Assembly (NCBI GenBank): GCA_030372965.1 | Contig: JAUCQC010000289.1 | Location: 1-45,000 of the forward strand | Source of the DNA: a bacterium | GTDB taxonomy: Bacteria > Zhuqueibacterota > QNDG01 > DTFT01 | Length of the DNA: 45,000 bases | Direction of reading: 5' to 3' | Part shown: positions 11,333-38,398 of the stretch, one piece after another | Position numbering within the stretch: position 1 is the first letter of the stretch | How the letters are laid out: every line of letters starts with the position of its first letter | Notes under the pieces: model-generated | Databases searched by the model: none | Seen by the model: the letters and a program-made list of their open reading frames with translations, nothing else | What the model was told of the DNA's origin: nothing | Program-made: the position numbers and the translations under genes

Positions 11333-12625
11333 GTGCCGGATCCGAATCCTGAGCGCCGCCTGCCGGAGTGCATCGCCTGCCTGGCCTCCGCGGACGGAAA
11401 CCGGGTTCTCGGCCGCTGGTCCGAGCGCGACTGGCTGGGGTGCGTCGGCCAGGCGGAGCGCCACGGGCTGACCGCCTACCTGAACCGCAGGCTGAAGGAA
11501 GCGCGTCCGGCTGTCGCCGTGCCGGCCCCGGTTCAGGACAGACTGCGTCAGACCCTCCTGTCGGACGCGTCGAAGTCGATCCGCCTCTTTCATGGCATCT
11601 CCGGCACGCTCCGAGTCCTGAAGGCCGCCCGAGTGCAGGTCATCGTATTGAAAGGCGCGTACCTGGCGGAGGCCATTTACGGCGAAATCACGCTCAGGCC
11701 GATGGGCGACCTGGATCTGCTCCTGAGGCCGGACTCCATTCCCGCAGCGTCGGAACTCCTGCTCGGCTCGGGTTTCAGGCCGATGAACCCGTCCGCTTCC
11801 TCCTGGCGGGAATGGACCGCGGATGAGAAAAGGGATTTTCTCAGGGGCGCGAAACATTTTTTCGACCTGGTCCATCCCGGCTGGCGGCTGAAGGTGGATC
11901 TCCACGCGTCTCTGGTCCGGGCCAGCGACCCCTTCACGATCGACGCCGGCGCTCTCTGGGACCGTGCCGTGCCGGCGCGCATCGCGGATGAGGACGCGCT
12001 TGTCCTGTCGCCGGTCGACGCGCTGCTCCATCTCTGCCTTCACGCGTCCGTCGCCCACCGCTTCAGGTTCGGCCTGCGTCCGATCGTGGACATATCCGAA
12101 ACCCTCCGGCGCCACGCGGACACCCTTTCCTGGCAGGAAGTGACGGACCGCGCCCGTGAATGGGGCGCGGAAAGGAGCGTCTGGCTGTCCCTGTCACTGT
12201 GCCGGGAGCTTCTGTCGGCGCGGGTTCCCGACTCGGTCCTGAGCGCGCTGGAGCCCCGGATTCCTCATCCCGAATACCGGGATCTCGCGGTTCGAAACAT
12301 CCTCCAACCCGGTCCGGCGCCGCAGGTTCTCCCGGATGACTTCGTCCGATCGTGGAGCGCGGAACGCTTTCGCGACCGGATATCCGCGGTGGCCCGGTCC
12401 CTGTTCCCGCCGGCCCGCGTCATGGCCCTGATGTACCCGGCTTCTCCCGATTCGTGGAGGATCATTCTCTATTATCCGGTTCGCTGGCGGGATGTCTTCT
12501 CCCGGTGGGGGAGGACCTGCTGGGATCTTCTGATGAGGAAAAAAGAGGCATCGGAACGCATGCGGAAAGAAAAGACTGAAGTCGCGTTCACGGACTGGCT
12601 GAAAACGAGGGAATCGCCGCGATAG
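11333..12625 (+). CDS. NTP_transf_5-family nucleotidyltransferase
   Basis: A 430-residue cytosolic protein of the uncharacterised nucleotidyltransferase family (Pfam NTP_transf_5). The core is VIVLKGAYLAEAIYG (residues 103-117) followed by LRPMGDLDLLL (121-131), where Asp126 and Asp128 are the metal-binding pair of the polymerase-beta fold. Relatives accompany RiPP clusters, including lasso-peptide clusters with phosphorylated products, and some capsule loci. The target is unknown. The GTG start has an AAGGAG site (11320-11325) overlapping the exporter stop, so the two are coupled. The long helical C-terminal half (about residues 230-430) matches the usual family length. Confidence 0.82.
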   Translation: MPDPNPERRLPECIACLASADGNRVLGRWSERDWLGCVGQAERHGLTAYLNRRLKEARPAVAVPAPVQDRLRQTLLSDASKSIRLFHGISGTLRVLKAARVQVIVLKGAYLAEAIYGEITLRPMGDLDLLLRPDSIPAASELLLGSGFRPMNPSASSWREWTADEKRDFLRGAKHFFDLVHPGWRLKVDLHASLVRASDPFTIDAGALWDRAVPARIADEDALVLSPVDALLHLCLHASVAHRFRFGLRPIVDISETLRRHADTLSWQEVTDRAREWGAERSVWLSLSLCRELLSARVPDSVLSALEPRIPHPEYRDLAVRNILQPGPAPQVLPDDFVRSWSAERFRDRISAVARSLFPPARVMALMYPASPDSWRIILYYPVRWRDVFSRWGRTCWDLLMRKKEASERMRKEKTEVAFTDWLKTRESPR

Positions 12626-13241: not shown

Positions 13242-14276
13242 ATGCCCATCATCAATCAATCCGAGATTGCCCGGAAACTGAAAGTCAGCCGCGCCACGGT
13301 TTCCAAGGCGCTCAAGGGCGATTCGGATATTTCGGACGACATGAAACAGCGCGTCCATGACCTCGCTGAAAAACTGAACTACATTCCGCATTATCACGCC
13401 CGGGGGCTTCATTCCCGAAAATCCATGACGATCGGCGTCGTCGTTCCGGACATCTCTAACTCATTCTTCTCCTACGCGGTCGACGGAATCATGGACGCGG
13501 CGGACCGTTCCGGGTATCATGTGATTCTGGCCGTTTCCCGCGAGAAAAGCGAGATCGAGAGAAAAAACATCCTCAATCTGCTTTCCATGCGGGTCGACGG
13601 ACTGCTCATCGCGGTTTCGAAGGAAACGCCGGATGCCGCCATCTACCACAAAGTGAAGATTTCGGATGTCCCGTTGATTTTTTTCGACCGGATTCTGGAG
13701 GAGCAGGGTTCGGGATTTGTCGGAATCGACGACCGGGGCGCGGCGAAAAAACTCGTCGATTTCGTGATCCGGTGCGGATACCGGAAAATCGGCCATCTCG
13801 CCGGGTCTTCCCATGTTCGGATCGGCCGCGACCGTCTCGAGGGGTATCTGGATTCCCTGAAGGATCATGGGTTGCCGATCCGGAAAGAATGGATCGCGGA
13901 GGGGGGCTTCGAAAGAAAGGACGGGATCGCCGGATTCGGGAAGGTCTGGACGGGCCGGGAAAAACCCGAAGTCCTCTTCGCCGCGAACGATCAAATCGCA
14001 CTCGGCGCGTATGACGCCATCCGCGAAAGGGGATTGAAGATACCGGAGGACGTCGGGATTGTCGCCTTCGGCCACCACGATTTCGCCCAGATCCCGTCCC
14101 CCTCCATGACCATCATCAATGTCGATCCCTATTTGCTCGGATTGGAGGCGATGGAGATGATGCTGAAATTCATCCGCGGAGAGAAGGGATTCAAAACCAC
14201 GGTCCGGATCGATTCGGAGATCGAGATCGGGGAATCGATCCGGGTGCCGGAAAATGGCGGATTCCGGAGGATTTGA
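13242..14276 (+). CDS. LacI-family transcriptional regulator
   Basis: A 344-residue LacI/GalR repressor. Residues 4-25 form the helix-turn-helix (SEIARKLKVSRATVSKAL), the hinge is LNYIPHYHARGL, and residues about 62-335 form the periplasmic-binding-protein-like effector domain (IGVVVPDISNSFFSYAVDG, then FVGIDDRG, then EVLFAANDQIALGAYDAIRERG). The ligand is unknown but should be a sugar or oligosaccharide of the adjacent locus. Promoter and operator overlap its own start, pointing to autorepression; there is no good Shine-Dalgarno because the dyad takes that space. The receptor gene begins 91 bases downstream on the same strand and has a similar dyad in its leader. Confidence 0.95.
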   Translation: MPIINQSEIARKLKVSRATVSKALKGDSDISDDMKQRVHDLAEKLNYIPHYHARGLHSRKSMTIGVVVPDISNSFFSYAVDGIMDAADRSGYHVILAVSREKSEIERKNILNLLSMRVDGLLIAVSKETPDAAIYHKVKISDVPLIFFDRILEEQGSGFVGIDDRGAAKKLVDFVIRCGYRKIGHLAGSSHVRIGRDRLEGYLDSLKDHGLPIRKEWIAEGGFERKDGIAGFGKVWTGREKPEVLFAANDQIALGAYDAIRERGLKIPEDVGIVAFGHHDFAQIPSPSMTIINVDPYLLGLEAMEMMLKFIRGEKGFKTTVRIDSEIEIGESIRVPENGGFRRI

Positions 14277-20100: not shown

Positions 20101-20744
20101 CCGTGGTCAACACCGCGGTGCCGCCCGACAGCGCCGGAAACCTCGAAAAACTGGACCTGGTTCTGTTTGACGCGAACGAGAATCAGGTGTTCGACTGGGA
20201 TTCCGATCGAATCCTCGTGGGATACGCGGCCAAGGACAAGGACAATTACTGGTGGGGCGGGACGATCTTTTCGATCGATTTTCAATACGCCGGAGTCAAC
20301 GAAAATCCGACCGCGCCCGGCGACCGGTACCGCGTGAGCGTGAACACACCGCTCACGGAGAACGATTCCTTCGTCTTCTCCGTGCGGCCCGAAGTCGAGC
20401 TGAACACCGCCCGGCTGGCCTCCGCCATGGATTCCATCAAGGTCGTGCCGAATCCCTACATTTCCACGAACCTCATGGAAACGGCCGTCGCGAACAAATA
20501 TCTGAACCAGAGGCGGCAGATCATGTTCACGCATGTCCCGGCCGACTGCGTCATCCGCGTCTACACGCCGTCGGGCGTGCTGGTCGACAGGATCGACGTG
20601 GACAACGGGCCGGAAGACGGCACGGTGCACTGGAACCTGGTGTCCCGCGAAGGGCTGGAAATCGCCGCCGGGATGTACATCTATCACGTTCACTCCAACG
20701 CCACCGGCCGGGACAAGGTCGGCAAGTTCGCGGTCATCAAGTGA
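17169..20744 (+). CDS. Large secreted protein with FN3-like and type IX-like C-terminal domains
   Basis: A 1191-residue protein of no family I can name. Start at 17169 is preferred over an in-frame ATG at 17133 because AGGAGA lies just upstream and it begins directly with a signal peptide (MKIQTGILAACLGGVLCASV, cleaved near AWAQG). Near residue 355-370 is a Ca-binding-type acidic loop (DNDDDGVIDES), and residues 395-490 are very Asp/Gly/Trp-rich. An FN3-like stretch begins near 605 (APPLMPTLKAAAGDGKVVLTW in part). The last 110 residues (VVPNPYI, then GVLVDRIDVDNG, then GMYIYHV, then KVGKFAVIK) resemble FlgD-Ig/type IX-secretion sorting tails. It sits between the receptor and the PorV-like gene, so it is probably surface-exposed and may take the SusD role; that is inference. 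Confidence 0.8.
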   Translation: MKIQTGILAACLGGVLCASVAWAQGRPYTGPEDPAGDISAIRSGTMNMNRLLLYFENNTQIADYPATGTSRWPNDYTGQRMIDVASILVGSEVVVYQDSIPIDRLDDPRLLETGSLDTLYMVESHSYPDDKPDLNYDGTVEWGIYPVPGYANPSQDYAAMSNKPESWPPEGWPLTGFTKVWPGEWNGRFGRGVMKAALESYFVANDAQDMEHIIQRNDPEQKLITLGPRYLPRPGRVIGDIDPYVTIQKGLPWGGLGLRYEVRGYQWANNEAQDIVFWEYNVSNISDYDLPKSGFGYYVDNSIGGDASGENEVGFRDKILDLAYVWERLGQGEGGRIPGVMGYAYLESPGKAFDGEDNDDDGVIDESRDNPAGQWVAAEMGPGGRLIDVDKFRAFNHQEPQPHWEGDEDQDWQDGMDPDHDGSYADRTESGEWVLELGAFCGDDVGVDGVGPGDLNYHGPDADGSECNHKPDFIDVKGEPNFGPLDVSESDMIGLTSFLLFDWAQWQNTLRLTLNEDMNVWNVMNSDSLSNYLVAGSVGSIYMIFASSPFPLYKGRTERVSMAFMAAYENLATLNAKAHRAENLFRLKEVAQIIYDHDYQFAQPPLMPTLKAAAGDGKVVLTWDDISDTKTREPLLQNANDFEGYKLYKSTDKFMSDARVITDGKGTKKYRAPLFQCDKVDTIKGYSNLGGTMDGHLVYLGDDTGIRHYFIDTDVQNGRTYYYALVAYDYGVEDLDIAPAESGVDIELDEAENVIRIGQNVQVVKPGQQAAGYVPPEIAIDEANTSERLLGGSIVPAVVDSKEILPGHSYRIRFSTSKIGNYALSKTRRATRDGKIVTSGMRIEDITESPVTVYQEDSAKGFAESNLQYDPDLKIWRLQAGSAITTDVFEGIHCRISVPADSVFIDRDPGKTGWIQGTAPIRVQAGPALPFFPFQYEIVFDPDMEYQSITNRTSGIYDVDGSLVSNRKRGIGLRYPFTVVNTAVPPDSAGNLEKLDLVLFDANENQVFDWDSDRILVGYAAKDKDNYWWGGTIFSIDFQYAGVNENPTAPGDRYRVSVNTPLTENDSFVFSVRPEVELNTARLASAMDSIKVVPNPYISTNLMETAVANKYLNQRRQIMFTHVPADCVIRVYTPSGVLVDRIDVDNGPEDGTVHWNLVSREGLEIAAGMYIYHVHSNATGRDKVGKFAVIK

Positions 20745-20790
20745 CGGATCCGTCGACCCTCTCACGTTCCGACAACACAGGAGATCGATC

Positions 20791-21849
20791 ATGAAGACAC
20801 TTCAAGCCGCGGCGATACTGGCGACGGTGCTCCTGGGCGTCCTTCCCGTGATGGGACAGTCCAAGCCCTACCGTGTGGGAACGACCACCGCCAATTTCCT
20901 GGAAATCGGCGCCGAAAGCGCGGGTTCCGCCATGGGAGAGGCCTATGTCAGCGTCGCCCGCGACCTGTCGGCGCTTTACTGGAATCCGGCCGGCCTTTCC
21001 TTCATGAACCGGAACGAGATCCAGTTCGCCTACCAGCCGTGGATCATCGACATCCAGTTCAGCCATGCGGCCGCGGCCTTCGTTCTGCCGTCTTTCGGCA
21101 CGTTCGCCCTGTCGTTCACCGGCATGAGCTACGGAAACACGCCCGTCACGACGCTCGAGATGCAGGAGGGCACGGGCGAGACATTTTCGGCCATGGACAT
21201 CGCCGCGAGTTTGTCCTACGCGAGGAAACTCGCACAATGGTTCGGATTCGGCGCCACGTTCAAGTACGTGACTTCCGGCATCTGGCACATGCGCGCCAAC
21301 GCGGCGGCTCTGGACATGGGGCTCCTCATCAACACCGGCTTCTTCTCGCCGGATGAGGCCCGGGAAAACGGGCTCGCCATCGGCATGAGCATTTCCAATT
21401 ACGGAACCAAAATGCGGTTTGACGGCATGGACCTGCTCCAGCCGATCGATATCTCGGAGGACGAGGGGAACTACAAGGACGTGGAAGGCCAGTTCCGCCT
21501 CCAGTCCTGGGAGCTGCCCCTCATCTTCAGGGTCGGGGCTTCCATGCTTCCCTTCAAGACGACCCACCATCAGCTCTGCGTGGCGGCGGACGCGCTGCAC
21601 GCCAACAACAACAGCGAATCGGTGAACGTCGGCGGGGAATACCGGATCCTCATTCCGGGGCGGGTCGCGCTCTGCCTCAGGAGCGGATATCGGGGACTTT
21701 TTATGGACCGCAGCGAATACGGCTGGACGTACGGCGGGGGAATCCACTGGGCCCTCATGAACAACCGCGCGCTGAAGATCGACTACGCCCTCAAGTCGAC
21801 CGGGATTCTGGGCGACTACTCCATGTTTACGGTCGGCGCTTCCTTCTAG
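20791..21849 (+). CDS. PorV/UPF0164-family outer-membrane protein
   Basis: A 352-residue FadL-like beta-barrel protein. A signal peptide ([20 protein letters not shown], cleaved after VMGQ) is followed by the family start [20 protein letters not shown] and [15 protein letters not shown], which is diagnostic of PorV/PorQ-type proteins. The barrel ends FTVGASF with a terminal Phe. In Bacteroidota, PorV is the type IX secretion shuttle that takes cargo from the translocon. Here it lies 46 bases behind a protein with a type IX-like tail, which suggests dedicated secretion or anchoring of that cargo. The ATG at 20791 follows AGGAG by 8 bases. A related fragment lies at 41-224. Confidence 0.88.
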
Positions 21850-21913
21850 CGCCGCGCCGGTTTTCGGATTGATTTCACCGTTGGAACCGGAATACTCCGA
21901 AGGGGAGTGCCAC

Positions 21914-24397
21914 ATGAAAAGGCGGATTCTCGCGACCGTGATCCCTCTTCTGATGTCGACTGCGGCCTCAGCGGGCGCGGACGGGACCACGGCGCCGTTC
22001 ACGCTGTGGTACGACAAGCCGGCACGCGCCTGGACCGAGGCGCTGCCGCTGGGAAACGGGCGCCTGGGCGCGATGGTTTTCGGGATTCCCTGGCGCGAGC
22101 GCATCCAGCTGAACGAAGGCACGGTCTGGGCAGGGGGTCCCTACCGCAATGACAATCCGGACGCGCTCCAGGCGCTTCCGGAAGTCCGCCGCCTGATTTT
22201 CAGCGGAGATCCCGGCGCCGCGCAGGCTCTGGCCGACGAAAAAATGGTCTCGAAAATCGCCCACGGCATGCCGTATCAGACCGTCGGGGACCTGGTTCTG
22301 TCCTTTCCCGGGCATGAGCGGGCGTCGGATTACAGGCGTGAACTCGATCTCGAACGGGCGGTCGCGACCACGCGCTACCGGGTGGGGGAGGTGACCTTCC
22401 GGCGCGAAGTGTTCGCATCCTTCGCGGATCAGGTCATCTTTGTCCGAATCACCGCGGACCGGCCCGGGCAGTTGAATTTCGCGGTCTCCATGGACAGGCC
22501 CGCGGCCTTTCATGTGGCGACCGAGGGTCCTGATCGGATCGTGCTGTCCGGAACGACCGGTGACTGTGAGGGCGTTCAGGGGAGGGTCCGGTTCGCAGCC
22601 GCGGCGCGGGTCGTATCCGGAAACGGCGTCACAGACGCGGTCGATGGGGCGATTTTTGTCCGGCATGCGGATTCCGCCCTGATCCTCGTGTCCATCGCCT
22701 CCAGCTTCATCCGGTACGATGACATCAGCGGCGATCCGCAGCGGAGAGCCGGGGAACGGCTCGTCCGGTCCGCGGAAAGGGATTACGCAGCCGCTCTCGA
22801 AGATCATATCGCGGCCTATCGCCGTTATTTCGGACGGGTTCGCTTGAATCTCGGCGTCACGGATTCCGCGCGGAATCCCACCGACGTCCGCATCGAACGG
22901 TTCGGCCGGGGGAACGATCCGCACCTGGCGGCTCTCCTGTTTCAATTCGGCCGCTATCTCCTGATCAGTTCCTCGCAGCCCGGGGGACAGCCCGCGACGC
23001 TGCAGGGGCTCTGGAACGAGCAGCTTTACCCGCCCTGGGACAGCAAATACACGGTCAACATCAACACGGAGATGAATTACTGGCCCGCCGAAACCGCGGG
23101 GCTCCCCGAAATGGCCGAGCCCCTGATCCAGATGGTCCGCGAGCTTTCGGAGACGGGACGGCAGACGGCGAAAAACATGTACGGCGTCGACGGGTGGGTC
23201 GCGCATCACAACACCGATCTGTGGCGCATCACCGGCCCGGTGGACGGGGCGTTCTGGGGGATGTGGCCGTGCGGCGGGGCCTGGCTCTGCCAGCACCTCT
23301 GGCAGAAATACCTGTACAGCGGGGACATCGCCTATCTGCGCTCGGTATACCCGATCCTGAAGGGGGCGGCCCAGTTCTATCTGGGATTTCTCACGGAGGA
23401 ACCCTCGAATCAATGGCTGGTCGTCTGCCCCTCCGTTTCCCCGGAGAACGCCCCTTCCATCCACCCGCAATATTCGATCACGGCCGGAGCGACCCTCGAC
23501 AACCAGCTTGTTTTCGATCTCCTGACGGCGACAGCCCGCTCCGCCCGTCTGCTGAAAACCGATCCGGCGTTTATCCGGGATGTCGAATCCGCCCTGCGGA
23601 GACTGCCGCCCATGCAGATCGGCCGGCACGGACAGCTCCAGGAATGGCTCGAGGACTGGGACAATCCGGAGGACCATCATCGTCATGTTTCGCATCTGTA
23701 CGGCGTTTTTCCGGGGAACCAGATCTCACCCTTCCGGACGCCCGAACTGTTCGAAGCGGCCCGAACGTCCCTGCTGCATCGGGGGGACCCTTCCACGGGC
23801 TGGTCGATGAACTGGAAAATCAACCTGTGGGCGCACTTTCTGGACGGCGATCATGCGTACAAGCTCATTCTCGAACAGATCAAGCCCGTGAACCGGAGGG
23901 TCGGCGGCGGATTCGCCGAATCGGGGGGAACCTACCCGAACCTGTTCGACGCGCATCCGCCGTTCCAGATCGACGGAAATTTCGGTTTCACGTCGGGTGT
24001 CGCGGAGATGCTGCTTCAGAGCGACGACGGAGCCGTTCACGTCCTCCCGGCCCTCCCGGGCGCCTGGAAAGACGGAAGCGTGAGCGGTTTGCGCGCGCGC
24101 GGCGGTTTCGAAATCGCGTCGATGGAGTGGAAAGAGGGGAAAATCATCCGCTTGAGCGTCCGATCCGCGCTCGGCGGCAACTGCCGGATCCGTTCCGGCA
24201 CGCCGTTGAAGGGCGGTCCGGGAACCCGGCTGAAAGCCGCCCGGGGCGGGAATCCGAATCCCCTGTACTGGATTCCGGAGGGAAAGCGTCCCCTGATTTC
24301 CAAAGACGCCCGAATCGAACCCCATCCCGCGCCGGAAGGGTACCTGTACGACATTGAAACGGCGCCCGGCCGGACCTATGATTTTACCGCGATTTGA
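21914..24397 (+). CDS. GH95-family alpha-L-fucosidase (possibly alpha-L-galactosidase)
   Basis: An 827-residue inverting glycosidase with a signal peptide ([20 protein letters not shown]). Domain order fits GH95: N-terminal beta-sandwich ([26 protein letters not shown]), helical linker, (alpha/alpha)6 barrel and C-terminal beta domain. By analogy with Bifidobacterium AfcA, the acid is Glu511 (SVSPEN), and the base system is Asn382/Asn384 ([12 protein letters not shown]) with Asp687 (FQIDGNFG). It would release L-fucose (or L-galactose) from glycan non-reducing ends in the periplasm or outside. The ATG at 21914 starts directly at the signal peptide. It follows the PorV-like gene by 64 bases and is the only catabolic hydrolase of the locus. 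Confidence 0.92.
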
Positions 24398-24501
24398 GGA
24401 AGCGCGGGACCGGTTCGTCCCATCCACGGTCCAGTGAATCTTTCCAAATCCGGGGGTGGTTCCATGGGGCGCGGTCCAAATCGCATCCGATCGAGGTGTC
24501 C

Positions 24502-26019
24502 ATGATGTCCATTCGTAGAAACGCCGTGTTCCTGACCATGGCTGTCCTGGTCTCCCTGCAGTGCGGGAAGAAGCGCCCGGACGACGGCATTCTCGCGGTC
24601 ATCGGAGACCGGGTCATCACGCGCGATGAATTCATCCGCAGAGCCGAGTACACCGTCCGGCCCCCCTATTGCAGGGGAGACTCGCCTCAGGCGAGGAGCA
24701 TTGTCCTGAATTCGCTCGTCGCTGAGAAACTGTACGCGCTGGAGGCCGGGGAACGGAACGCGCTGGCCGCCAGTCCGGCTTTTCAGAGCCTGATCCTGGG
24801 CAGAAAAGAGCAGTCCATGAGACTGCACCTGCTGGAAGCGGTCACGAAGGGAAAAACGGCGCCGGACAATTCCGAACTTCGAAGCCGCGCCAGCGTCGCG
24901 GGCCGGGAATACCGGCTGAGCTTTTTTACCGTTCCCCGGGAACGGATCGGCGTCCTGAAGGATTGGGGCGCGGCCGCGGCGCGGTCGGCATCCTTCGATG
25001 AACTGCACAGGAGGACCGGAGGATTGGGGCCGCCCCCGCGCAAGGTCGTTTCCTGGAAATCGCCGGAGCCGCCGGCGGTCCACCAGGCCCTGTTCTCGGG
25101 TCCGCTCCTGAAAGACCAGGTGGTCGGTCCGGTCGACGTCGGCGAAGACGGGTATCTTATGATGCGGATTCTCGGATGGCTTGACCGGCCCGCCGTTTCC
25201 GATCAGGAAATCCGGGAACGCCGCGAGGCCGTCCGGCGGAGAATGGAGGAAGAGAAAAAGCAGGCCGTCTGGGATGCCTATGTGTTCGGGCTGATGAAAG
25301 GCAAAAGACTCGAGTTTCAGCGGGAGCCGTTCGAGAAAATGGCGGAGCTCATGAGAACGCTCCAGCTGCCGGACCGGAAACCGCAGGACGCGTTGTCCCT
25401 CGGGGGAATGACGAACGACGGCATGGCCGCGCGCCGGACCGCGGATTCGATTCTCTCGGAAATCCGTTCGAACCGGATGGAAGGCCGGCCCTTCTTCACG
25501 TTCGACGGAAGAACCTGGACCGTGTCCGATTTTCTCAAATTGACCGCCTCCCACCCCCTGGTCTTCAGGAAAAGAAGGATGGGGCCCGGCGAATTCCCCG
25601 GCCAGTTCAAGCTGGCTGTCGCGGATCTGCTGAGAGACGCGGTCCTCAATCGGGAAGCCTATGACCGGGGGTTGGACCGGCTTCCCGCGGTTCAGCGGGA
25701 GACGGCGATGTGGCGCGACGCGCTCCTGGCCGCTTATCATCGGCACCGCGTCCTGAGCGCCAGGGGAACGGCCGCCGATCGGGCCGCCGGCGGGGATCGG
25801 GACCCGGACCGTCTCCTGGGGGCCTACACCGACAGCCTGTTCAAGGCCTACAACGGCAGGATCGGAATCAACGTCGGCCTGCTCGAGAGCATTCGCCTGA
25901 CCCGCATCGACATGGTTGCGTTGAACCGCGATCTTCCCTATATTGAAACGGTTCCGGTTTTCCCCGCGGTCACGTCCAGACCGCGTCTGGATTACGGAAA
26001 AAGGCTTGATCGACCCTGA
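24502..26019 (+). CDS. SurA-N-like secreted protein, putative lipoprotein
   Basis: A 505-residue envelope protein. A hydrophobic leader (residues 1-21) ends in SLQC, which is not a perfect lipobox (Gln before the Cys), so lipidation at Cys22 is plausible but unsure. The segment DGILAVIGDRVITRDEFIRRAEY (in part) is the usual beginning of SurA/PpiC chaperone N-domains. A long helical, basic/acidic body follows, with FTFDGRTWTVSDFLKL repeating that motif style in the middle. No parvulin (PPIase) active-site block is visible, so it is probably a periplasmic chaperone rather than an isomerase. Tandem ATGs at 24502 and 24505 follow GAGGTG; either could be used. It lies 105 bases behind GH95 and may be part of that transcript. 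Confidence 0.65.
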   Translation: MMSIRRNAVFLTMAVLVSLQCGKKRPDDGILAVIGDRVITRDEFIRRAEYTVRPPYCRGDSPQARSIVLNSLVAEKLYALEAGERNALAASPAFQSLILGRKEQSMRLHLLEAVTKGKTAPDNSELRSRASVAGREYRLSFFTVPRERIGVLKDWGAAAARSASFDELHRRTGGLGPPPRKVVSWKSPEPPAVHQALFSGPLLKDQVVGPVDVGEDGYLMMRILGWLDRPAVSDQEIRERREAVRRRMEEEKKQAVWDAYVFGLMKGKRLEFQREPFEKMAELMRTLQLPDRKPQDALSLGGMTNDGMAARRTADSILSEIRSNRMEGRPFFTFDGRTWTVSDFLKLTASHPLVFRKRRMGPGEFPGQFKLAVADLLRDAVLNREAYDRGLDRLPAVQRETAMWRDALLAAYHRHRVLSARGTAADRAAGGDRDPDRLLGAYTDSLFKAYNGRIGINVGLLESIRLTRIDMVALNRDLPYIETVPVFPAVTSRPRLDYGKRLDRP

Positions 26020-26091: not shown

Positions 26092-27060
26092 ATGAAAACC
26101 ATTCTCGTGGCGGGGGCGGGAGGATTCATCGGCGGTCATCTGGTCAACGCCCTCAAAAAGAACAACCACGTGCGCGCCGTGGACATCAAGCCGCTCAACC
26201 GTTGGTATCAGCGTTCACCCGAAGCGGAGAACCGCGTCCTGGATCTGCGGATCCGCGAGAATTGCGTCACCGCGGTGAACGGCTGCGACGAGGTCTACAA
26301 CCTGGCGGCGGACATGGGCGGAATGGGGTTCATCGAGACGCACAAGGCGGCCTGCATGCTCAGCGTCCTGATCAACACCCATCTGCTCATGGCGGCCCGG
26401 GAGATCGGCGTGGAGCGCTATTTCTTCGCCTCCTCGGCCTGCGTGTACAACGCCGAAAAGCAGCGGGATCCGGACAATCCCGGACTCCGGGAATCCGACG
26501 CCTATCCCGCCATGGCCGAGGACGGCTACGGATGGGAGAAACTCTTCAGCGAACGGATGTGCCGTCATTTCAGGGAGGATTTCGGCATGGTCACCCGGAT
26601 GGCCCGGTTCCACAACGTCTACGGACCCTTCGGCACGTGGACCGGCGGGCGCGAGAAGGCGCCGGCCGCGATCTGCCGGAAGGTCATCGAGGCCAAACTG
26701 GGCGGCACCCGTGAAATCACGATCTGGGGCGACGGGCTCCAGACGCGGAGTTTCATGTACATCGACGACGGGGTGAAGGGCATTGTGGACATCATGAACA
26801 GCGCGATCGAGGAACCGATCAACCTGGGTTCCAGCGAGATGGTCTCCATCAACGGGCTGGTGGACCTCGTGGAGGCGATCGCCGGGATCAAGCTCGAGCG
26901 GAAATACGACCTCAACGCCCCCAAGGGCGTGCGCGGAAGGAACAGCGACAACACGCTCATCCGGCGGTACTTGAACTGGGAACCTTCCATCTCCCTGAAG
27001 CAGGGGCTGGAGAAGACGTACGCGTGGATTTTCCGGCAGATGACTGAAGGGCGGAAATGA
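26092..27060 (+). CDS. GDP-mannose 3,5-epimerase-like NAD-dependent epimerase
   Basis: A 322-residue extended SDR enzyme. The NAD motif is GAGGFIGG (residues 8-15). The match to plant GME is strong: LAADMGGMGFIETHKA (71-86), ASSACVY with Cys117, YGWEK with Tyr146/Lys150, HNVYGPFGTW, GGREKAPAAICRK with Lys189, WGDGLQTRSF and PKGVRGRNSD. These include the Cys and Lys that carry out the double epimerisation. The expected reaction is GDP-D-mannose to GDP-L-galactose (and GDP-L-gulose). Its stop overlaps the next start by four bases (ATGA), so the two proteins are made together. The family is best known from plant ascorbate synthesis; in bacteria it usually supplies surface polysaccharides. Confidence 0.88.
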   Translation: MKTILVAGAGGFIGGHLVNALKKNNHVRAVDIKPLNRWYQRSPEAENRVLDLRIRENCVTAVNGCDEVYNLAADMGGMGFIETHKAACMLSVLINTHLLMAAREIGVERYFFASSACVYNAEKQRDPDNPGLRESDAYPAMAEDGYGWEKLFSERMCRHFREDFGMVTRMARFHNVYGPFGTWTGGREKAPAAICRKVIEAKLGGTREITIWGDGLQTRSFMYIDDGVKGIVDIMNSAIEEPINLGSSEMVSINGLVDLVEAIAGIKLERKYDLNAPKGVRGRNSDNTLIRRYLNWEPSISLKQGLEKTYAWIFRQMTEGRK

Positions 27061-28202
27061 ACCGGGACGAATCGGGTGAAAAGACGGTCCTGGTCAGCGG
27101 ATGTTTCGATCTGCTGCACGCGGGGCACGTCGCCTTTTTCAAGGAGGCGTCAAAGTACGGCCGCCTGACCGTTTCCCTGGGCACGGACGAAAACATCCGT
27201 CTTCTGAAGGGCCGGCCGCCGGTTTTCACGCAGGACGAACGCCTGTTTCTCGTCCGGTCGATCCGTCACGTCCATGACGCGATCCTGGGATCCGGCAGGG
27301 GTCTGCTCGACTTCGAGCCGGACCTGAAGCGGCTGAAACCGGACCGTTTCGTGGTGAATTCGGACGGGCACACGCCGGAGAAGGAACGCCTGTGCCGCGA
27401 GAACGGCGTGGAGTACATCGTCCTTGACCGCGTGCCCGAGAAGGGCCTGCCGGCCCGTTCGAGTTCCGGCGTCAAGCTGGAGCTCCGCCTGCCGTACCGC
27501 ATCTGCCTGGCCGGCGGTTGGATGGACCAGCCCTGGGTATCCAAACTGCACCCCGGGCCGGTCATCGTCGTTCAGATCCTTCCGACCGTCGTTTTTAACG
27601 AGCGCTCGGGCATGGGCACCAGCTCGCGCAAGGTGGCGCTCGATCTCTGGGGCGACCGCTTCCCGGACGGCGACCCGGAACGCAACGCCAGACTGCTCTT
27701 CGGCGCCGAGAATCCTCCCGGTTCCGGGTACGTGTCCGGATCCCAGGACCATCTCGGGCTTCTGCTGCCGGGCATCAATCGTCTTCACTACGCGGGCGGG
27801 TACTGGCCGGCCCGCATCGACTCGATCACGGACCCGGACGCGGCCCGATGGCTGGAAAGCGTTCTGCGCCTGATTCCCGTCGGACCGCGCCCCCCGCAAT
27901 ATGACCCCCTCCAGGATCGGAACGTGACCGTGGAAGGCGTGCGGATGCTGGCGGAATCCGCTGAATGCTGCTGGTCCGGCATACGCGAGCGGAACGTCGC
28001 ACGGCTGGGCCGATCATTGACCATGAACCTGGAGGCATGGAAACGGCTCCTGCCCCGCGCGGTCCCGAAGGAGCAGGAGGAAAAACTGAGGGCGTACGCA
28101 CGTTATCCGGGCGCGATTTTCTCCGGAAGCGGGGGAGGATACATCATCCTGGTCTCCGAGGAGGACGTTCCGGACGGCCTGGCCGTTCGCATTCGAGTCT
28201 GA
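27057..28202 (+). CDS. Cytidylyltransferase-like / GHMP kinase-like fusion protein
   Basis: A 381-residue two-domain protein. Residues about 9-135 are a HxGH nucleotidyltransferase domain (VSGCFDLLHAGHVAFFKEA, with HAGH at 21-24, then RLFLVRSIRHVHDAI) of the RfaE2/TagD type. Residues about 140-381 show GHMP kinase motifs: LPYRICLAGGWMDQP (motif 1, about 144-158), GMGTSS (motif 2, 185-190) and SGSGGGYIILV (motif 3). The kinase part is about 240 residues, short for the superfamily (about 300-350), so it may be reduced. The arrangement recalls bifunctional kinase/pyrophosphorylases such as FKP, but with a different nucleotidyltransferase fold. It probably activates a sugar for the surface polymer supplied by the upstream epimerase; the exact sugar is unknown. 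Confidence 0.75.
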   Translation: MNRDESGEKTVLVSGCFDLLHAGHVAFFKEASKYGRLTVSLGTDENIRLLKGRPPVFTQDERLFLVRSIRHVHDAILGSGRGLLDFEPDLKRLKPDRFVVNSDGHTPEKERLCRENGVEYIVLDRVPEKGLPARSSSGVKLELRLPYRICLAGGWMDQPWVSKLHPGPVIVVQILPTVVFNERSGMGTSSRKVALDLWGDRFPDGDPERNARLLFGAENPPGSGYVSGSQDHLGLLLPGINRLHYAGGYWPARIDSITDPDAARWLESVLRLIPVGPRPPQYDPLQDRNVTVEGVRMLAESAECCWSGIRERNVARLGRSLTMNLEAWKRLLPRAVPKEQEEKLRAYARYPGAIFSGSGGGYIILVSEEDVPDGLAVRIRV

Positions 28203-37303: not shown

Positions 37304-38398
37304 ATGATTGAACAGAAAATCAAGAGCCGGGAGGAACTCGTCCGGATCTGCGAATCCCTCCGATCGGCGGGAAAGACGGTCGGCTTCACGTCCGGCGCCT
37401 TCGACCTGCTGCACGCGGGGCATGCCGACTACCTCGAGAAGGCCAAAGCCCTGTGCGACGTTCTGGTCGTGGGCGTGAATTCGGACCGGTCCGTGCGCGA
37501 ATACAAGGGGCCGGACCGGCCCGTCGTCCCTGAATCACAGAGGCTCAAGCTGGTGGCCGCGCTCGAATCCGTCGATTACGTCTTTCTATTCGACGAGCGG
37601 AGGAACCGCGCCAACCTCGAGGCGCTGAAACCCGGGTTCTATATCAAGGCCGGGGATTACAGCCCGGAGAAGCTGACCTCATCCGACGCGCTGTCCCCGT
37701 TCGGCGGGGAAGTGCGGCTGATCCCCATCACCGAGACGGTCTCCTCGACCGCGGTCATCGAACGCATTCTCGCGTCCGGCGGCCGGCCCGCGGAGACGGT
37801 CGTGGAACAGGATGGCGCCGCGCACATCGAGCGCAGGCCCGCTAAACGGTCTCCCGCGGTGTTTCTGGACCGGGACGGCACCGTGATCGAGGAAGCCGAG
37901 TACCTGCACGAACCGGAACGGGTCCGCGTTCTGCCGAACGCGCTGGAGGGGATGAAACGGTTCCAGGACATGGGCTTCCGCATCGTCCTGATCACGAACC
38001 AGCCGGGAATCGGCATGGGGTATTACTCGAAGGAGGATTTCTACCGCGTGAACCGCGCCTTCCTCAAGCAGGTGTCCGCCGCGGGCGTCCTGGTCGACAA
38101 GGTCTATTTCTGCCCCCACAGCAAATCCGAAAAATGCGGCTGCCGGAAACCCGGGCAGGCGCTGGTGCGCCGGGCGGAAGAGGACCTGAACCTGGATCTG
38201 ACGCGGAGCGTGATGATCGGCGACAAGACATCCGACATCGAGACCGGAAGACGGGCGGGGATGAAAACCGTGGCCGTCCGCACGGGATTCGGCGCGAAGG
38301 ACGGGGAGTATGACGTGCAACCGGACTGGATCGCCGGGGACCTGCTCGACGCGGCCGGGCAGGTGCTGGACTCCGAGAGAAAAACCGCCCGGCCGTGA
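37304..38398 (+). CDS. Fused heptose-1-phosphate nucleotidyltransferase / heptose bisphosphate phosphatase (RfaE2-GmhB)
   Basis: A 364-residue bifunctional protein for LPS heptose synthesis. Residues about 8-160 are the RfaE2/HldE-C domain (GFTSGAFDLLHAGHADYLEK, with HAGH at 37-40; then GVNSDRSVREYKGPDRPVVP), which makes ADP- (or GDP-) heptose. Residues about 183-355 are GmhB, a HAD phosphatase (FLDRDGTVIEE with Asp189/Asp191; LITNQPGIGMGYY; zinc loop CPHSKSEKCGC with Cys260, His262, Cys268, Cys270; GDKTSD at 306-311). GmhB removes the 7-phosphate from heptose-1,7-bisphosphate, the step before RfaE2. HldE normally fuses the kinase to RfaE2, so this pairing differs. The kinase (HldE-N), GmhA and HldD are not in this window. 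Confidence 0.92.
   Translation: MIEQKIKSREELVRICESLRSAGKTVGFTSGAFDLLHAGHADYLEKAKALCDVLVVGVNSDRSVREYKGPDRPVVPESQRLKLVAALESVDYVFLFDERRNRANLEALKPGFYIKAGDYSPEKLTSSDALSPFGGEVRLIPITETVSSTAVIERILASGGRPAETVVEQDGAAHIERRPAKRSPAVFLDRDGTVIEEAEYLHEPERVRVLPNALEGMKRFQDMGFRIVLITNQPGIGMGYYSKEDFYRVNRAFLKQVSAAGVLVDKVYFCPHSKSEKCGCRKPGQALVRRAEEDLNLDLTRSVMIGDKTSDIETGRRAGMKTVAVRTGFGAKDGEYDVQPDWIAGDLLDAAGQVLDSERKTARP

Follow-up and report, generated by a model that had tools for sequence, protein, structure and literature searches.

The window, a stretch of bacterial DNA of 45,000 nucleotides, harbours two overlapping genes coding for a GDP-mannose 3,5-epimerase (GME) and for a protein, here called NTK, in which an HxGH nucleotidyltransferase is fused to a truncated GHMP-fold domain. 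NTK belongs to a widespread family without prior description, and its pairing with GME is not a matter of chance, since GME is adjacent in 22 of the 24 members of the clade to which the NTK of the window belongs. The reading that we prefer, with a probability of roughly one half, is that the two proteins form a Leloir-like pathway leading from L-galactose through L-galactose-1-phosphate and GDP-L-galactose to GDP-D-mannose.

L-galactose occurs in xylan side chains, in RG-II and in algal galactans. The roles reported for GME are vitamin C and cell wall synthesis in plants and, as proposed, LPS and antibiotic synthesis in bacteria; to our knowledge, bacterial GME has so far been assigned to synthesis only. 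If the preferred reading is correct, the cassette gives this enzyme a catabolic role, and an unnamed family of at least 568 loci is defined as activator of L-fucose or L-galactose. All domains of NTK and GME come from known superfamilies, while the searchable literature contains no description of the fusion, of the deletion or of the coupling to GME: neither a kinase-based bacterial route for L-galactose nor a paper describing the NTK fusion or the GME-NTK pairing was found in open-access PMC text.

The epimerase and the gene cluster of the window

Among solved structures, Arabidopsis GME (2c59) is the top match of the window epimerase (319 bits, E 5e-94), with 49% identity over 302 aligned residues, whereas the first structure other than GME reaches 96 bits only. 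The claim of an earlier note that the protein keeps all the active-site motifs of plant GME was confirmed by residue comparison: S143, C145, Y174, K178, N203, E216, K217 and R306 (Arabidopsis numbering) are all retained, with C145, Y174, K178, K217 and R306 corresponding to C117, Y146, K150, K189 and R283 of the window protein. The window protein shares the catalytic Cys, Lys and Arg, as well as YxxxK and GxxGxxG, with the plant and Methylacidiphilum enzymes. A catalytic Cys, a Lys base and an acidifying Arg tell GM35E from GDP-fucose synthase (PMC8787198), and all three are present in the window protein (C117, K189, R283). The assignment to GDP-L-fucose synthase (GMER/Fcl) was rejected, the base position being occupied by Lys and not His and NF047922 scoring 119.7 bits against a cut-off of 500. 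Judged by its sequence, the ORF thus encodes a GDP-mannose 3,5-epimerase, predicted to interconvert GDP-mannose and GDP-L-galactose. The reaction of GME is reversible (PMC8787198), and GDP-L-gulose is also a possible product (PMC6678494). The setting of the window gene differs from that of plant GME, as it is paired with NTK in clusters containing hydrolase, LacI and transporter genes; the four-base overlap (ATGA) of the two ORFs, noted earlier, is confirmed.

Table 1. Features of the gene cluster and of the NTK protein (positions in the window).
Position	Strand	Feature	Basis or remark
13242-14276	+	LacI-family regulator, head of the cluster	PF00356, PF00532
14368-17106	+	TonB-dependent receptor with carboxypeptidase-regulatory-like domain	PF00593, PF13715, PF07715
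17133-20744	+	Secreted protein, 1203 aa, weak T9SS/FlgD-like C-terminus	Weak NCBIfam match
20533-21849	+	PorV/FadL-like outer-membrane protein	PF19572, E 1.4e-8; start probably downstream of 20741
21869-24397	+	GH95, candidate alpha-L-galactosidase/fucosidase, TVNIN with Thr	PF22124, E 7.7e-178
24394-26019	+	Putative lipoprotein, SurA/PpiC-like N-terminus by eye	No significant Pfam match
26092-27060	+	GDP-mannose 3,5-epimerase (GME), 322 aa	Solved-structure match and catalytic residues
27057-28202	+	NTK, HxGH nucleotidyltransferase fused to truncated GHMP-fold domain, 381 aa	
27057-27470	+	NTK nucleotidyltransferase domain, residues 1-138	PF01467
27117-27128	+	HxGH motif of NTK, as HAGH	Intact
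27492-27533	+	GHMP motif 1, PYRICLAGGWMDQP	R148, W155, D157 = FKP R592, W599, D601
27579-27602	+	Junction where FKP ~620-711 (adenine-binding segment) is missing	Spacing comparison
27603-27629	+	GHMP motif 2 (phosphate loop), RSGMGTSSR	
27738-27749	+	GSQD	G228, Q230, D231 = FKP G759, Q761, D762 (D762 proposed general base)
28125-28142	+	GHMP motif 3, GSGGGY	

The genes from LacI through the TonB receptor, the secreted protein, the outer-membrane protein, GH95, the lipoprotein and GME to NTK lie on one strand in this order and, by spacing and strand, apparently share one transcript; ffh and then other housekeeping genes, recognised by eye, follow downstream. Parts of the gene order recur in three relatives (G010, G014, G037), G014 and G037 having kept the TonB receptor close to the pair, and G010 and G014 a homologue of the lipoprotein beside GH95. 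In all three, a homologue of the 1203-aa secreted protein, for which no Pfam match was found, travels with the TonB receptor, a PorV-like protein and GME-NTK, and this protein could be a surface glycan-binding partner.

The solved structure nearest to the window GH95 is the alpha-L-galactosidase BACOVA_03438 (4ufc, 890 bits), followed by the XacAfc95-type 7kmq (764 bits). The Thr at position 370 of BACOVA_03438 is present in the window protein as well; it is, however, shared with XacAfc95, which carries Thr and yet is a fucosidase (PMC8245568), and the Thr/His difference was therefore dropped as proof of specificity. It had been suggested earlier that the GH95 half of the window might be linked to the GME-NTK half, and the apparent operon, with LacI at its head and a GH95 closest to a solved alpha-L-galactosidase, bears this out.

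Two further nucleotidyltransferases are encoded in the window. The ORF at 37304-38395 (+) codes for a protein of 364 aa that joins an HxGH nucleotidyltransferase (PF01467) to a HAD hydrolase, resembling a combination of the heptose enzymes HldC and GmhB and unrelated to the pair, and that at 11333-12622 (+) for an uncharacterised NTP_transf_5 nucleotidyltransferase beside an ABC transporter.

The two domains of NTK

Residues 1-138 of NTK match PF01467 with an E-value of 3.6e-11 (43.8 bits, cut-off 21), and G15, D18, H21, G23 and H24 show no variation across 49 sequences. The best solved sequence match of this domain is ethanolamine-phosphate cytidylyltransferase; the HxGH enzymes nearest to it use CTP or ATP. 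Assignment to HldE/RfaE domain II was rejected, as TIGR02199 gave an E-value of 3.9e-14 but only 52.7 bits, far under its cut-off of 181.5.

The remainder of the window protein (residues 139-381) yields, when taken alone, no significant match to the Pfam GHMP families, PF00288 included. A 28-row profile of this region, in turn, finds the fucokinase FKP of Bacteroides fragilis (E 3e-12) and a heptose kinase (E 1.4e-6). The AlphaFold prediction (pLDDT 90, pTM 0.90) gives a confident GHMP fold, its best matches among GHMP kinases having TM scores of 0.73-0.76; normalised to the query, these are 0.74 for FKP and 0.76 for the heptokinase WcbL, which came first in Foldseek.

The L-fucose contacts of FKP have been named in a structure paper of 2025 (PMC11982464). 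R592, W599, D601, Q761 and D762 of FKP are matched by R148, W155, D157, Q230 and D231 of NTK, and the equivalents of these five and of G759 are identical in all 97 NTK sequences compared, in every one of which the position of T602 is Gln. Motif 1, the phosphate loop and motif 3 of GHMP kinases are invariant or nearly so in the same 97 rows (in the loop, G185 and R191 in all, S189 in 95). Meanwhile, the distance from the first strand to the phosphate loop falls from about 93 residues in FKP to about 9 in NTK. The missing stretch, about 84-85 residues long, contains D644, M645, P666 and I669, which in FKP are thought to be placed around the adenine (PMC11982464). Since phosphate loop and general base lie almost equally far apart in the two proteins (42 vs 40), a single main deletion and no general decay is indicated. 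With the adenine-binding segment gone, ATP-dependent kinase activity should not be assumed, and the function of NTK as an ordinary ATP kinase seems doubtful. The earlier description of a short GHMP kinase was correct in fold and length (243 aa, compared with about 345-420 aa for GHMP kinases), and the degeneracy of the kinase motifs, named at the time as a possible refutation, is half borne out: the sugar-binding and catalytic residues speak against it and the deletion for it. The biochemical question raised is what role a GHMP enzyme devoid of its adenine pocket plays.

The domain may still phosphorylate, with a donor bound in another manner. The other answer would be that the GHMP-derived domain is a module that binds a sugar-1-phosphate and hands L-galactose-1-phosphate or L-fucose-1-phosphate to the HxGH domain, the kinase being encoded elsewhere. 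This explanation, which we rate as plausible though slightly below even odds, concerns a single step and is compatible with either direction of the pathway. The complete loss of the adenine segment alongside a preserved sugar pocket and phosphate loop argues for it, as does the survival of the loops of G717 and A900, the backbone nitrogens of which bind the product phosphate in FKP (PMC11982464), and in Chloroflexota the GHMP domain is a separate protein. However, no other sugar-1-kinase gene was regularly found nearby, the FucP and mutarotase genes of these loci suggest that the substrate is a free sugar, and the equivalents of the general-base Asp and of R592 are invariant, although both also touch the sugar.

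NTK shares with FKP the sugar-binding residues, the phosphate loop, the union of a GHMP domain and a nucleotidyltransferase in one protein and, in its sister clade, the L-fucose locus context. FKP, moreover, accepts L-galactose weakly and makes GDP-L-galactose from it, its affinity for this sugar being about 100-fold weaker (PMC11982464). Besides containing the segment that NTK lacks, FKP is a protein of about 950 aa with an N-terminal PF07959 pyrophosphorylase and a beta-helix, whereas NTK, at 381 aa, carries an HxGH nucleotidyltransferase (PF01467). In HldE, too, a sugar-kinase-type domain is combined with an HxGH nucleotidyltransferase that is similar in sequence to that of NTK, but the kinase is of the PfkB type. 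By these comparisons NTK is neither FKP nor HldE, but a GHMP-fold protein failing one defining feature of GHMP kinases.

The earlier note had also considered a heptose or L-gulose. HddA/HldE-like activation of such a sugar would be in line with the first rank of WcbL in Foldseek, with the weak match of the nucleotidyltransferase domain to HldE domain II and with the ability of GME to yield GDP-L-gulose (PMC6678494). Nevertheless, the sequence profile places FKP far ahead of heptose kinase, the L-fucose contacts are invariant, and the neighbours, often those of L-fucose loci, are of the L-fucose/L-galactose type. On these three grounds the heptose pathway was rejected, and this whole alternative is regarded as very improbable.

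Distribution and neighbourhood of the pair

In the GTDB collection, relatives of NTK are encoded by at least 568 stretches, the best 80 of which were read. The occurrence is sporadic: the full-length protein is present in 9 of 82 genomes of the window's phylum, and NTK was found in 4 of 248 genomes of the phylum of L045 (centre genome included). Counting FKP as a gene that NTK might replace was uninformative (2 of 50 NTK genomes against a background of 3 of 248).

The tree of 97 GHMP parts falls, at an SH-aLRT of 100, into a fucose-type clade of 73 rows and a window-type clade of 24. NTKs of the fucose type often lie near L-fucose genes (FucP, mutarotases, GH29, FucI), and in nine of the 73 loci (L040, L052, L058, L065, L079, L110, L113, L117, L120) GMD and Fcl, sometimes with ManC, stand beside them. 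As these genomes mostly carry only one copy of GMD, chance is not expected to place the genes side by side. The window clade shows specific changes, among them D150 to C/A, W353 to A and K354 to I, which fit a sugar other than that of the fucose clade. For this reason it seems improbable that the window NTK acts on L-fucose, with GME only making GDP-L-galactose as an inducer or side product, even though the pocket is fucokinase-like and the neighbouring GH29 and FucP are of the L-fucose type; moreover, GME stands where GMD and Fcl would, and the GH95 is nearest to an L-galactosidase.

The two exceptions to the coupling in the window clade are L050, where GME lies in the same genome but on a different contig, and L035, in the genome of which no GME was found. 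The search for the gene pair in other phyla, named earlier as a key test, revealed a conserved unit in five: the window's own, Bacteroidota, Ignavibacteriota, Planctomycetota (a divergent pair) and Chloroflexota. In the last of these the genes are split (GME-K-NT-NT) and have LacI, often also GH29, upstream of them; the GHMP domain forms a protein of its own, about 265 aa long, which is adjoined by a tandem nucleotidyltransferase.

Such tandem nucleotidyltransferases, in which the first copy has lost HxGH, adjoin the free-standing truncated GHMP domain at L130:9885-10700, L131:6382-7350, L132:6887-7993, L133:7274-8089 and L085:7928-8845. They resemble ethanolamine-phosphate cytidylyltransferase, itself a tandem HxGH protein, which differs in its phosphoethanolamine substrate and in having no GHMP-derived partner. 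An apparent second association of GME with NTK was noticed in Chloroflexota (L069:11140-12189, L085:11138-12121), where a distant GME (48-50% identity, SSVCVY) sits with a fucose-type NTK, FucI and an FGGY kinase.

The 107 neighbours of 16 pairs include LacI (9), GH29 (9), mutarotase (5), MFS (5), ManC (4) and GH95 (3), and FucP is likewise frequent; no glycosyltransferase occurs among the 25 commonest families, although single ones are possible. By contrast, the 40 neighbours of seven GMEs without NTK include GT2, WecG, GT10, GT11 and GT1, and LacI, GH29 and GH95 are absent from the 25 families listed there. One GME of this kind (L138:6049-7956) adjoins an apparent GT11 fucosyltransferase, which suggests that fucosyltransferase-type enzymes at this locus use GDP-L-galactose.

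These neighbourhoods bear on the direction of GME. The two enzymes might instead provide parallel routes, GME by synthesis from GDP-mannose and NTK by salvage of free L-galactose, to GDP-L-galactose for surface glycans, in the manner of GMD/Fcl and FKP for GDP-L-fucose; the NTK step would be the same as in the linear route, and only the direction of GME would differ. The sister-clade loci with GMD, Fcl and sometimes ManC are in favour of this, because GMD is unlikely to work in reverse and only salvage fits there; ManC is also found near GME-NTK in four loci. Still, glycosyltransferases are frequent beside the GMEs without NTK and not beside the pairs, and the coupling, which is far tighter between GME and NTK (22/24) than between NTK and GMD/Fcl (9/73), fits consecutive steps better than parallel ones. 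We consider the supply of a glycosyl donor unlikely, albeit a stronger candidate than the action of NTK on L-fucose.

A proposed route for L-galactose

According to the preferred reading, GH95 (GH29 in relatives) would cut alpha-L-galactosyl or fucosyl ends off glycans, and the freed L-galactose would be imported via the TonB receptor and an inner-membrane symporter, of the FucP or SSS type in relatives, with a mutarotase (found in relatives) setting the right anomer. The fucokinase-derived pocket of NTK would then hold the sugar, yielding or using L-galactose-1-phosphate, which the HxGH domain would join to a nucleotide, most likely GMP, to give GDP-L-galactose. Reversible 3,5-epimerisation by GME would convert this into GDP-D-mannose, from which ManC, adjoining the pair in several relatives, may release mannose-1-phosphate and regenerate GTP, unless GDP-mannose is used directly.

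The two proteins with their residues, the conserved pairing and the gene context are established by the sequences, whereas we infer L-galactose as the substrate, GTP as the nucleotide, the direction, the kinase activity and the source of the phosphoryl group. NTK most likely acts with GME in converting scavenged L-galactose into GDP-D-mannose. The route is supported by the equivalents of the FKP L-fucose contacts, invariant in 97 rows, and the consuming direction of GME is favoured by the hydrolase, LacI and transporter context of the pairs, which is not proof. Against it stands the phosphoryl donor, left unexplained by the loss of the adenine segment; moreover, GTP is suggested by the GDP-sugar neighbours only, while CTP or ATP is the substrate of the nearest HxGH enzymes. 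The L035 genome, with an NTK of the window clade but no GME found, and the mannose-6-phosphate isomerase sought in vain in the incomplete window genome also speak against the route. Of the earlier proposals, an activated sugar of the L-galactose type remains the best fit, whereas for GME as the supplier of GDP-L-galactose the opposite direction agrees better with the neighbourhoods.

The resemblance to the Leloir pathway (GalK/GalT/GalE) lies in the trio of a GHMP domain, nucleotidyl transfer and an SDR epimerase that act one after another on a galactose, and is a functional analogy only. The two differ in the sugar (L- vs D-galactose), the nucleotide (presumed GDP vs UDP), the epimerisation (3,5- vs 4-), the transferase (HxGH vs GalT) and the truncation of the GHMP domain. 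If active, the cassette would make activated sugars accessible by a short route that starts from the free sugar, L-galactose or L-fucose. The fuller proposition of an undescribed L-galactose catabolism, in which plant vitamin C chemistry is partly reversed and an adenine-less GHMP domain forms a composite active site with the HxGH domain, is put forward tentatively, as something rather less probable than the route itself. In the window genome, which is 85% complete, mannose-6-phosphate isomerase (PF01238) was not found, and a ManC-like gene is present.
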